Positions 3,588-48,648 of a stretch of 64,000 nt of DNA are shown here, piece by piece (position 1 is the first letter of the stretch; each line of letters opens with the position of its first letter). The position numbers were made by a program, and so were the translations under genes. The notes beneath the pieces are model-generated. The model searched no databases, had not been told where the DNA came from, and worked only from the letters and a program-made list of their open reading frames with translations. The DNA is from Chlamydiota bacterium (GTDB lineage Bacteria; Auribacterota; Tritonobacteria; UBA1439): positions 1-64,000 of the forward strand of contig JAAYCL010000008.1 in assembly GCA_012729785.1 (NCBI GenBank). The letters are read 5' to 3'.

Positions 3588-4727
3588 TCAGCGCCCCATC
3601 CCCTCCAGCCGCGTCAGCGCGCTCCTCGCGGCCCTGGGGTCCGGATCCGTCTCCACCGCCTTCTCGAGCGCGCGCCGGGCGAGGTCGTAGCGGCCGTTCA
3701 TCATGTAGACCAGCCCCATCCCGCGGTAGGCCTCCCCGCAGCCGGGGGAGAGCGCCACCGCCTTCCGGTACTCGGCGAGCGCCATATTGAACCACTCCAC
3801 GTACCGGTACGTCGCCCCGATGCCGTAGTACGCGTCCCCGAGCATCAGACGCGCCTCGACGCACCCGGGGTCCGCCTCCACCGCCTTCTGGAGGTGCTGT
3901 ATCCTCGCGTGCGATCCGTCGGGCGACTGCCGGGCCCTCGCCAGCTCCTCGAACGCGGCGGGCGAGGATGTCGGGCACGCCGCGAGCCGTTCCATCTCGG
4001 CGTCGCTCGGCGGGACGCCGAGAAGGGCCGCGAGCCGGGCGGCCATCCGCGCCTCGAGCTCGCAGAGGCGGCCGAGGAGCCCTTCCACTCGGAACCTGCC
4101 GGGCGGGGCCGCGGTGGACGGCCGCCGCGCCTCCAGCGCCACGGAAACGGCGTCGCCGCTCCGCCTCACGGTGCCCGAGACGACGATGTCGGCCCCGATG
4201 CGGCGCGCGAGACGCGCCGTCTCCCTGTCGTCGAGCGCCTCCTCCCCCTTTGCGCGACGGCGCTCGTGCGACCGCACCTCGCCCGCGTCCAGAAACGCCA
4301 AGCCGCCGAACGAATCCAGCTTTCGCCCGAGCGAATCGGCCAGTTCGACGGCGAGCCATTCGTCGCGCGCCTGCCCGGACTCGAGACGGAACGCGAGGAC
4401 CGCGACGCGGCACTGCTCCCCGGGCCCCGCCAAAGAGGCGTTGTGCGCCTTGAGCTCGATGAAGCGCAAAAGCGGAAGCTCTCCGCCTGGCGGGGCCGCG
4501 TTTGGCGCGGGCGCCGGGGTCGGTCGGAGGGAGAGGAATCTCAGGAGCGGGGCGTCCCGCTGCTGCGCCGGGACGGCGCACGAGAGGAGGAGCGCAGCTG
4601 CATAGGTTATCACGCTGGATCGCAAAGAGGCGGTCGCCGCATCGGACGCGCCCGCCGCGAACCCCCGCACGCGGGGGAACGCCCCGCGGCGCGCCCACCG
4701 GCTCCCCGCCGGCAGCGTCCCGGACAA
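3588..4727 (-). CDS. Exported protein with TolB-amino-terminal/FlgO-like domain and TPRs
   Basis: 379 aa at most. After an N-terminal region with a signal-like segment (VITYAAALLLSCAVPAQQ, about residues 39-56) comes an alpha/beta domain (CRVAVLAFRLESG, DEWLAVELADSLGRKLD, FLDAGEVRSHERRR, GADIVVSGTVRRSGDAVSVALEA) with the order seen in TolB-like N-terminal or FlgO-like domains. C-terminal TPRs follow (AHIQHLQKAVEADPGC, YRKAVALSPGCGEAYRGMGLVYMMNGRYDLARRALEKAVETDP). The exact start is uncertain: the Arg-rich first 38 residues may be untranslated. It lies 13 nt after the propeller gene, probably in one operon. Confidence 0.6.
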   Translation of the reverse strand: MSGTLPAGSRWARRGAFPRVRGFAAGASDAATASLRSSVITYAAALLLSCAVPAQQRDAPLLRFLSLRPTPAPAPNAAPPGGELPLLRFIELKAHNASLAGPGEQCRVAVLAFRLESGQARDEWLAVELADSLGRKLDSFGGLAFLDAGEVRSHERRRAKGEEALDDRETARLARRIGADIVVSGTVRRSGDAVSVALEARRPSTAAPPGRFRVEGLLGRLCELEARMAARLAALLGVPPSDAEMERLAACPTSSPAAFEELARARQSPDGSHARIQHLQKAVEADPGCVEARLMLGDAYYGIGATYRYVEWFNMALAEYRKAVALSPGCGEAYRGMGLVYMMNGRYDLARRALEKAVETDPDPRAARSALTRLEGMGR

Positions 4728-43689: not shown

Positions 43690-44445
43690 TCACTCCCCGC
43701 GCGCGAGCGTGTAGACATCCACCCCCGCGGCCCCCGCGGCGAGGAGCGTCGAAACGCACTCGGCCGCGGTCGCCCCGGTCGTGTACACATCATCGACGAG
43801 CAGCAGCCGGCGGCCCGCCACGAGGCGGGCGTCCGAAACGGCGAACTCCCCGCGCACGTTCTGCCGCCGCTGCGCCTTCGAGAGGGCGCGTTGCGACGGC
43901 CGTCCGCCCCTGCGCGCGAGGGCCCGCTTCTCCACGGCGATCCCCGCGAACCTGCCGAGCACCAGGGCGAGGTCAAGCGACTGGTTGAAGCCCCGCTCCC
44001 GGCGGCGTTCCGGGGAGATCGGCACGGGGACGAGCGCGTCGTACGACGCCCCCGGGCACTCGCGGGCGAACGACTCCGCCATGAACGCCCCCAGCGGCTC
44101 CGCGAGGTCCCGCCGGTCCCGGAACTTCAGCAGGTGCACGCACTCCCGCAGCGGGCCCTCGTACCGCCCCGCGGAACGGCAGGTGCCGAACCGCGGCGAT
44201 CGGACCCTGCAGCCGCCGCAGAGGGTGTCGAACGGGACCGGAACGGCGCCGTACACCTGTGTCCCGCACCGGGGGCAGTACGGCTGGCGTATCGCGGGAA
44301 GCCGTCCGCGGCAGGGGCCGCAGAGGCCGCCCGGTTCCGCGGGGGCGAGCGCCGCCTCGCAGAGGGCGCACCGGGCCGGCAACAGGAGGCCGAGGAGGCC
44401 CCGCCAGAAGGCGACGCACACGGACCGCGTGCCGATGCCGTTCAT
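43690..44445 (-). CDS. comF: ComF-family phosphoribosyltransferase-like protein
   Basis: 251 aa. N-terminal zinc ribbons C26/C29, C42/C45, C57/C60 and C76/C79, then a PRTase fold ending RRLLLVDDVYTTGATA, the PRPP-binding loop. Family is linked to DNA uptake (ComFC) or purine-like salvage (GntX). Fits its place in the operon by spacing only. Confidence 0.9.
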   Translation of the reverse strand: MNGIGTRSVCVAFWRGLLGLLLPARCALCEAALAPAEPGGLCGPCRGRLPAIRQPYCPRCGTQVYGAVPVPFDTLCGGCRVRSPRFGTCRSAGRYEGPLRECVHLLKFRDRRDLAEPLGAFMAESFARECPGASYDALVPVPISPERRRERGFNQSLDLALVLGRFAGIAVEKRALARRGGRPSQRALSKAQRRQNVRGEFAVSDARLVAGRRLLLVDDVYTTGATAAECVSTLLAAGAAGVDVYTLARGE

Positions 44446-44477: not shown

Positions 44478-45776
<1,299 letters not shown>

Positions 45777-46943
45777 CTAGAGCCCCGCGGCCTTCCGCAG
45801 CGCCTCCGCCTTGTCGGTCTTCTCCCAGGTGAAGCTCGGAAGCAAGCGGCCGAAGTGCCCGTTCCGCGCCGTCTCGCGGTAGATCGGACGGCGCAGCTTC
45901 AGATGGGCGATCATCCCCGCGGGGGTCAGGGGGAACAGCTTCCGGATGAGGCCGGCGATCTTCTCGTCGGGTATCCTCCCCGTCCCCTCCGTGTCCACGT
46001 GTATCGAGAGCGGATCCGCCACGCCGATGGCGTAGGAGAGCTGCACCTCGCAGCGGTCGGCGAGGCCGGCCGCGACGACGTTCTTGGCCACGTAGCGCGC
46101 CATGTAGCTCGCGCTCCGGTCCACCTTCGACGGATCCTTCCCGGAGAAGGCGCCGCCGCCGTGCCGGCCGCGGCCCCCGTAGGTGTCGACGATGATCTTG
46201 CGGCCGGTCACGCCGGTGTCGCCGGCGGGCCCCCCGACCACGAAACGCCCGGTCGGGTTGACGTGGTAGATCGTCTTGGCGTCGAGCAGCCGCTTCGGGA
46301 TGATCGGCAGGATGACCTTCTTGATGATCTCGCTGCGGATCTTCGCGTACGGGATCCCGTCCGCGTGCTGCGTCGAGACGACGACCGTGTGGACGCGGAC
46401 CGGTTTCCCGCCGTCGTACTCCACCGTGACCTGCGACTTCCCGTCCGGACGGAGCCACGAAATGAGCCCCTTCTCGCGGGCGTACGAGAGGCGCTCGACG
46501 AGCCGGTGCGCGAGGTGGATCGGGAGCGGCATCAACTCCTTCGTCTCGCGGCATGCGTAGCCGAACATCAGCCCCTGGTCCCCCGCCCCCGCCGCCTTGT
46601 GCAGCCCCTGCCCCGCCGTGACGCCCTGCGAGATGTCGGGGGACTGCTTGTGCACGGAGACGAGGATGCCGCAGCTCTCGGCGTCGAAGCCGATGTCGCC
46701 AGTCGTGTAGCCGATCTCGCGGATCGTCCTGCGGGCGACCCCCTGGTAGTCGATCTCGGCTTTGGTGGTGATCTCGCCCGCGATCACCACGAGGCCGGTG
46801 GTGAGCATCGTCTCGCAGGCCACCCTGCCGTGGGGATCCTTCTCGTAGACGGCGTCGACGATCGCGTCGCTGATCTGGTCCGCGACCTTGTCGGGGTGGC
46901 CCATCGTGACCGATTCAGAGGTGAACAGATACCGCGATGCCAT
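45777..46943 (-). CDS. metK: S-adenosylmethionine synthetase
   Basis: 388 aa. Makes SAM from methionine and ATP. Start [27 protein letters not shown] with the signature [39 protein letters not shown] and GGGAFSGKD loops present. RBS GGGAGGA before ATG 46943. In the same transcript as ahcY, so SAM use and SAH removal are co-regulated. Confidence 0.97.
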
Positions 46944-46980
46944 TGCGTCCTCCCTTTCTGTGCGTCCCTGCCGCGTGCCG

Positions 46981-47733
46981 TCAGTCCGTTTCGGCGCGCC
47001 TCGTTGCCGTGTAGAGCGCGTCGGCCCTCCGGTACATCTCCAGATCCCCGATATCATACCAGATCCCCCGGAAGACGTAGGCATAAACCTCCTCGCGGGG
47101 GCAGAGCCACTTGACGAAGAGACCCGGCGCGTCCATCTTGTTCCCCTCCCGCGCGTACGTCTCGAAGAGCGGGAGCTTCCGGCGCGGGTACAGGTACATC
47201 CCGATCGCGGCGAGCGTCGTGGGCGGGTCGGCGGGCTTCTCCACGAAGTTCACGACGCGGTGCGCCGCGTCGACCCGGAGGATGCCGTAGAGCCGCGCCG
47301 CCTCCCGGTCGCCGACGTCGTAGGCGGCGACGGTGATCCCCTTCTCCCTGAAGAACGGGATGAGTCTTCCCAGGTCGAGGTCGAAGAGGTTGTCGCCGAG
47401 AACGACGAACAGGTCGTCGTCGATCCTCTCCTTCTCGATCACGAACCGGATGTCGCCGATGGCCCCGAGCTTGTCCGCGTCGGAGACCGTCCCGTCGTCG
47501 ATGACGGCGACCGGGGCGCGGCTGCGCCTCTTCTCAGCCCATTCCCGGAACGACGGGGCGAACCGGCGGTTGGTCACCACGAGGATCCGGTCTATCTCCT
47601 CCACCTTGTCGAGCGCGTCGACGATGTAGTCGATGATCGGCCTCCCGGCGATCGGGAGGAGCGGTTTGGCGCGGTCTTTGGTGAGCGGGTAGAGCCGCGT
47701 CGCGTACCCCGCAGCCATGATCAGCGCCTTCAC
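46981..47733 (-). CDS. Sugar-phosphate nucleotidyltransferase
   Basis: 250 aa from GTG 47733 (GAGGAGGAGGGA upstream). NTP transferase fold: [57 protein letters not shown]. Most like glucose-1-phosphate thymidylyltransferase or UTP-type enzymes; sugar not certain. First gene of the metK/ahcY operon. Confidence 0.9.
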
Positions 47734-47758
47734 CCCGTCCCTCCTCCTCGAAAGATGG

Positions 47759-47787
47759 AAAAAAGGACCCTGGAGACACCCGGGTCC
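47759..47787 (-). terminator. Intrinsic terminator-like hairpin inside the operon leader (attenuator candidate)
   Basis: On the minus strand GGACCC (47787-47782), an 11-nt loop, GGGTCC (47770-47765), then six T (47764-47759). It lies between the promoter at 47845-47817 and the GTG at 47733, so transcripts meet it about 20-50 nt after starting. A second inverted pair upstream (ACCC about 47814 region, GGGT about 47800) could compete. Confidence 0.65.
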
Positions 47788-47816
47788 CCGCATTCCCACC
47801 CACGGTACGAGGGTAC

Positions 47817-47845
47817 AGTATATACCGCGTCGAAACGGATGGCAA
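47817..47845 (-). promoter_or_regulatory. Promoter of the nucleotidyltransferase-metK-ahcY operon
   Basis: TTGCCA (47845-47840), 17-nt spacer, TATACT (47822-47817), one of the best matches in the window. Confidence 0.65.
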
Positions 47846-47939: not shown

Positions 47940-47968
47940 TTGACATCGGCGTATGAAACTGGTGTAAT
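47940..47968 (+). promoter_or_regulatory. Promoter of the bactofilin gene
   Basis: TTGACA (47940-47945), 17-nt spacer, TGTAAT (47963-47968); ATG at 48030. Divergent from the metK operon promoter. Confidence 0.7.
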
Positions 47969-48029: not shown

Positions 48030-48587
48030 ATGAGCAATATCCTGAGGAGGCTCGGCGCGGACGGTGCGGGCCAGGGCATCCCCAACTACCCCGGCAGGGA
48101 GGAGGGACAGAAGATGGCCATTCAGGACAAGCTGCAGCAGCCGATCGCCCACAGCGAGCTCAAGGAGACCGTCATCAGCCCGGACGCCGAGTTCAAGGGG
48201 TCGATGAAGTTCAAGGACTCTTTGCGGATCGACGGGAACTTCGAGGGGGAGATCGACTCCAACGGAACGCTCTTCGTCGGCAAGACCGGCCTCGTGAAGG
48301 CCGAGGTCCACGTGGGGAACGTGATCGTCGAGGGGAAGATCGAGGGGAACGTCACCTGCGAGGACAAGATCGAACTCCGGGCGACCGCGAAGATGCTCGG
48401 CGACATCCAGGCCGCCCGCCTGACCATCGCCGAGGGGGTCAACATCGTCGGCAAATGCTCCGTGAGCTCGCAGAAGCCGGCGGCGGAAGCGTTCAAGCCC
48501 GACCGGCCTTCCCGCCCCGACTTCAAGAAAGGCAGGGACGACAGGTCCGGCGGCGAGCGGTCCGGGATGGGGGGGGGCGCGGACTGA
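48030..48587 (+). CDS. Bactofilin
   Basis: 185 aa. Core right-handed beta helix: DAEFKGSMKFKDSLRIDGNFEGEIDSNGTLFVGKTGLVKAEVHVGNVIVEGKIEGNVTC, with the regular short repeats of bactofilins, cytoskeletal polymers that shape cells. N-terminal MSNILRRLGA may act as a membrane-targeting helix; C-terminal tail is Gly/Asp/Arg-rich. ATG 48030 has GGGGGAGGAG upstream; an internal ATG at 48114 also has GGGAGGAGGGA, so two forms are possible. Confidence 0.93.
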   Translation: MSNILRRLGADGAGQGIPNYPGREEGQKMAIQDKLQQPIAHSELKETVISPDAEFKGSMKFKDSLRIDGNFEGEIDSNGTLFVGKTGLVKAEVHVGNVIVEGKIEGNVTCEDKIELRATAKMLGDIQAARLTIAEGVNIVGKCSVSSQKPAAEAFKPDRPSRPDFKKGRDDRSGGERSGMGGGAD

Positions 48588-48616: not shown

Positions 48617-48648
48617 GGGCGGCCGCAGGGCCGCCCTATTTCTTTTCC
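48617..48648 (+). terminator. Intrinsic terminator after bactofilin
   Basis: GGGCGGCC (48617-48624), loop GCAG, GGCCGCCC (48629-48636), then TATTTCTTTT. A strong 8-bp GC stem with a T-rich tail in the right place. Confidence 0.8.

Follow-up and report, generated by a model that had tools for sequence, protein, structure and literature searches.

What does the short leader in front of a metK- and ahcY-containing gene cluster in an Auribacterota genome do: does it sense SAM or SAH, or does it restrain transcription by simpler means? A preliminary description of this locus, which lies in a stretch of 64,000 nucleotides (the window, i.e., the whole of the DNA analyzed), listed a promoter, a GC stem-loop with six T, a ribosome-binding site, and a GTG codon, and each of these parts was located on the minus strand (Table 1). 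The same description assigned them to the leader of a metK/ahcY operon; metK and ahcY are present, but the first gene encodes a sugar nucleotidyltransferase (NTase; PF00483) and is not metK. Judging from the sequence, we consider that the leader element is probably a promoter-proximal intrinsic terminator acting as a transcription attenuator.

Table 1. Features of the NTase-metK-ahcY-comF operon and its leader in the window
Feature	Position	Strand	Evidence
Promoter, sigma-70-like, TTGCCA-17-TATACT, of the NTase-metK-ahcY-comF operon	47817..47845	-	consensus scan, 10/12
-35 TTGCCA	47845-47840	-	sequence
-10 TATACT	47822-47817	-	sequence; kept in G001, G002, G004, and G005
Start region and unconserved spacer, 29 nt from TATACT to stem	47788..47816	-	fixed length, variable sequence
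Terminator hairpin GGACCC-(11-nt loop)-GGGTCC	47765..47787	-	sequence; stem kept in 5 genomes
Stem arms GGACCC / GGGTCC	47787-47782 / 47770-47765	-	sequence
11-nt hairpin loop GGGTGTCTCCA	between GGACCC and GGGTCC	-	sequence
T-run of six T, final part of the intrinsic terminator	47759..47764	-	sequence; 5-9 T across five genomes
Shine-Dalgarno sequence CGAGGAGGAGG	47740..47750	-	sequence
GTG start codon	47733-47731	-	sequence
Gene of the sugar nucleotidyltransferase (NTase), with GTG start, first after the leader	46981..47733	-	PF00483, E 1e-34
metK, SAM synthetase	45777..46943	-	TIGR01034, above cut-off
ahcY, SAH hydrolase	44478..45752	-	TIGR00936, above cut-off
comF-like phosphoribosyltransferase, closing the conserved gene order	43690..44445	-	TIGR00201, E 6e-30, below curated cut-off

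Architecture of the leader

All promoters were called by consensus matching. The leader promoter was the only sigma-70-like site that the consensus scan found in the 46.5-49.0 kb region, where 0.2 sites were expected. With the transcript start placed, by assumption, 6-9 nt after the -10 hexamer, transcription is predicted to begin at ~47810, which leaves ~20-25 nt of RNA ahead of the stem. The hairpin has the composition of an intrinsic terminator (i.e., a 6-bp GC-rich stem followed by T6), and the same arrangement is present in four relatives. Two more G-U pairs are possible between positions 47788-47789 and the first T's of the T-run. On the minus strand, the leader continues after the T-run with GAGGAGGAGG and then GTG.

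Taken by itself, the hairpin is at chance level. When loops of up to 12 nt were allowed, a scan of the 64-kb window returned two terminators, one of them this hairpin; that count is within the range of shuffled sequences (0-4), and the leader fold was no better than that of shuffles (z -0.9). The stock terminator scan missed the hairpin because its loop limit of 8 nt is shorter than the 11-nt loop. The hairpin is lifted above chance by its retention in 5/6 genomes of the family at a constant distance from the -10 hexamer.

Conservation across the family

We compared six genomes of the family, comprising that of the window (G000) and five relatives (G001 to G005). A hairpin with a T-run precedes the same NTase gene in five of them (G000, G001, G002, G004, and G005), which span three genera. 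The shared pattern consists of TATACT, 31-32 nt, G(G/A)ACCC...GGGT(C/T)C, and a run of 5-9 T; the -10 hexamer and the ACCC of the stem are 31 nt apart in the window, against 32 nt in each of the four relatives. The 5' side of the stem is identical at 6-8/9 positions per genome pair, versus 5-12/26 for the 26 nt between the -10 hexamer and the stem (5/26 for G000 and G001, even though these belong to the same genus). The loops differ in sequence and measure 9-11 nt, and the distance from the terminator to the start codon varies from 23 to about 113 nt.

According to the preliminary description, absence of the hairpin from close relatives would speak against control at this site. Four relatives keep the hairpin, although that of G002 is weak (-6.8 kcal/mol). 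The exception is G003, in which the NTase gene directly follows a MoaA-like gene, and the promoter and the hairpin are both missing while the operon is kept. Covariation across leaders of homologous operons, also proposed in that description, yielded a single compensatory pair: one stem pair is changed on both sides (two genomes have G-C at this place, the other three A-U), and with five sequences and one pair the shuffles do not reject chance. In this comparison, 97.5% of cells are paired, which is weak evidence with five sequences. Stem pairs were counted on the two arms alone, because full-length MAFFT alignments shift the 3' arm by one base, the loops differing in length.

The gene upstream of the leader varies: G000 has a divergent bactofilin gene, G001 has a catalase gene, and the other three genomes with the leader (G002, G004, and G005) have a moaA-like gene. 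The promoter-hairpin cassette stays with the NTase gene while this neighbor differs and is thus not the terminator of an upstream gene.

The arrangement is also specific within these genomes. A search for the stem pattern with an A/T-run gave one convincing site per family genome, namely the NTase leader. Among 754 -10-like hexamers checked in ~1.05 million strand-bases of the six genomes, the only strong cases of a terminator 20-45 nt past the hexamer were the five leaders of this operon. A terminator census covering 450 kb of the window's genome found few hairpins with a clean T-run, and only the leader hairpin had a -10 hexamer within 70 nt. No NTase-leader hairpin was found in other Auribacterota families, Omnitrophota, or Clostridia, apart from one weak AT-rich match (L090).

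Genes downstream of the leader

The gene order NTase-metK-ahcY-comF is kept in all six genomes of the family. The NTase is a protein of 250 residues with an NTP_transferase domain (PF00483), and its orthologues are 72-84% identical within the family; among known structures, it comes closest to glucose-1-phosphate uridylyl-, adenylyl-, and thymidylyltransferases.

A metK promoter with 10/12 matches (TTGAC(A/G)-17/18-TA(T/G/C)AGT) is present in each of the five relatives, G003 among them, and ends 34-41 nt ahead of metK. Because a separate promoter serves metK and ahcY in these genomes, the leader appears to act there mainly on the NTase gene and cannot be the main SAM/SAH control. For the genome of the window, the consensus scan detected no recognizable metK promoter at 46944-46980 (the best site has 7/12 matches and lies 109 nt away), and expression of metK and ahcY probably relies on read-through from the leader promoter.

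The linkage of the NTase gene with metK was also seen outside the family. In other Auribacterota families, metK directly follows the NTase gene in 9/12 loci, and the same adjacency occurs in about a dozen loci of Omnitrophota or related bacteria (L053-L064 and L079-L105 for these groups together); it was not found in the Clostridia loci compared alongside them. The NTase-metK-ahcY order thus reaches far past the family of the window's genome.

A probable terminator with no sign of a riboswitch

The preliminary description interpreted the leader as an attenuator or a riboswitch expression platform. The first part agrees with our results: the terminator follows the promoter and precedes the first gene, the arrangement is conserved, and the promoter scan revealed no further promoter between the terminator and that gene. 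In G000, G001, and G005, the T-run is separated from the start codon by only 23-31 nt, so that no second promoter fits between them and transcription from the leader promoter must pass the terminator. The riboswitch part fares differently, since nothing ahead of the terminator is aptamer-sized or conserved.

A riboswitch that responds to SAM or SAH and acts through a transcriptional expression platform would suit a gene cluster that includes metK and ahcY, all the more since these genes appear to depend on the leader promoter in the window's genome. However, only ~20 nt precede the stem, and the 26 nt upstream of it are unconserved, leaving no conserved ligand-binding aptamer. The statement that no known SAM or SAH riboswitch consensus is recognizable was confirmed, as the leader has no relevant Rfam match even at E<=10; nothing relevant was found in the window at gathering level or in 14 related loci either. 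The SAM-I model had no match in any of the six family genomes, and the SAM-Chlorobi model (RF01724) had none at the operon here or across relatives, its best matches lying elsewhere and below the cut-off. A switching-type attenuator would require an antiterminator mutually exclusive with the hairpin, yet pairing of the spacer with the 5' arm, the loop, or the 3' arm was no better than in shuffles in all five genomes. Together with the separate metK promoter of all relatives, these results make a riboswitch hardly credible, and the NTase leader can be dropped as a candidate for a new SAM/SAH riboswitch.

By gene context, the closest described element is the SAM-Chlorobi motif (RF01724), a candidate RNA ahead of Chlorobi metK-ahcY operons for which no binding of SAM or SAH was seen (PMC2864571). 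Both elements lie in the leader of operons that contain metK and ahcY, and both include promoter-like sequence; here, however, the element is a plain terminator hairpin, metK is not the first gene, and RF01724 is unmatched at the locus. SAM-I, SAM-II, SAM/SAH, and SAH riboswitches occur in metK or ahcY leaders of other bacteria, and several of them use a terminator. The NTase leader differs in having no aptamer, and none of these models reaches its threshold. Elsewhere in the phylum, SAM-I riboswitches above the cut-off were observed in six other genomes (L112-L117), including one of the same class but outside the family (G006).

Alternative explanations

The likeliest alternative is a protein-dependent attenuator, in which an RNA-binding protein would recognize either the stem (GRACCC/GGGTYC) or the nascent leader, shifting the balance between termination and read-through. 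The stem stands at a fixed distance from the promoter, and its sequence is more constant than pairing in a simple terminator demands, a hint of a binding protein or some other constraint. There is, however, neither a candidate protein nor a conserved single-stranded motif, and the CAT_RBD domain of BglG/SacY-type antitermination was absent from all family genomes (0/6) while the control genomes matched; in the ANTAR search, the controls themselves were without a match. We regard this explanation as unlikely. A stronger version, in which an RNA- or polymerase-binding factor of Auribacterota recognizes the GRACCC/GGGTYC terminator, with the stem and its fixed distance as the signal and neither antiterminator nor aptamer involved, seems more doubtful still; if true, such a factor would control the sugar nucleotidyltransferase and, in the window's genome, SAM synthesis.

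The remaining explanations assign the hairpin to something other than control of the operon by attenuation. The conserved promoter, ~22 nt, and conserved terminator have the anatomy of a minimal small RNA gene, which would yield an independent RNA of ~55 nt and leave the operon to be expressed by leakage. A small RNA would be expected to keep a single-stranded seed, but the first 20-25 nt and the loop are unconserved even within the genus (5/26 between G000 and G001); moreover, the leader promoter is the only recognizable promoter of the operon in G000, and Rfam offers no match, so this explanation is very unlikely. A perfect inverted repeat at a fixed distance from the -10 hexamer could equally be a DNA operator, i.e., a repressor-binding palindrome after the promoter with an incidental T-run. 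The spacing of the half-sites (9, 10, and 11 nt) is of a kind that RNA hairpins tolerate and DNA dyads rarely do, the T-run keeps to one side of the repeat throughout the five genomes, and no second convincing site of the pattern occurs in the genomes, all of which render an operator highly improbable. As for a hairpin without function, which the counts in shuffles and the ordinary fold would allow, its retention in five genomes of three genera while the surroundings diverged reduces the likelihood to next to nothing.

Two further types of attenuation were considered by eye and rejected. The ~20-25 nt preceding the stem in the five leaders contain no conserved start codon or Shine-Dalgarno sequence, as a leader-peptide attenuator would require, and the predicted transcript starts share no G-run of the kind expected for reiterative-initiation attenuation of the pyrG type. 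In G001 (L118, ~4267-4365), a strong outer helix can pair the 5' spacer with sequence after the T-run (-27 kcal/mol duplex; shuffle P value of 0.007). This helix is possible in G000 and does not form in G005, G004, or G002; given those three genomes and a combined P value of 0.036 that is uncorrected for the testing of four partners, we do not claim it.

Proposed mode of action

The promoter-proximal attenuator that we favor builds on the observed parts of the leader, their conservation, the fixed distance, and the specificity to this operon; that termination takes place at the hairpin, and to what extent, we infer from the DNA sequence. RNA polymerase would start ~20 nt ahead of the stem, and the hairpin and U-tract would form within the first 50-55 nt, releasing a share of the polymerases. 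Those reading through would transcribe the NTase gene. In the window's genome, read-through transcripts would probably also carry metK, ahcY, and comF, and in the relatives, where metK has its own promoter, the throttle would rest mainly on the NTase gene. The control most likely consists of a fixed read-through ratio or of modulation by general elongation factors (NusA/NusG, RNA polymerase speed).

Such an attenuator requires no new principle, because NusA-tuned termination in the leader of nusA itself is already known: in Bacillus subtilis, NusA stimulates termination in the leader of its own gene (PMC12288461). There, too, the amount of transcription that enters the gene depends on a terminator within the 5' leader and involves no RNA aptamer. 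The two cases differ in gene and phylum, and the leader described here is very short with a fixed promoter distance. Thus, the type of device is known, and its occurrence at the NTase-metK-ahcY operon is new. An uncultured phylum with few recognizable intrinsic terminators in the genome keeps one directly behind a promoter, and with conserved position and stem but no sensing domain, the NTase leader is a small case in which attenuation without a switch RNA could be tested cleanly.

On the opposite side of the leader, a TTGACA-17-TGTAAT sequence at 47940-47968 (plus strand), identified by eye, probably serves as promoter for the bactofilin gene that runs divergently (48030-48587). A strong terminator hairpin (GGGCGGCC-GCAG-GGCCGCCC) with a T-rich tail lies 29 nt past this gene at 48617-48636 (plus strand); apart from it, the window has only one good terminator.
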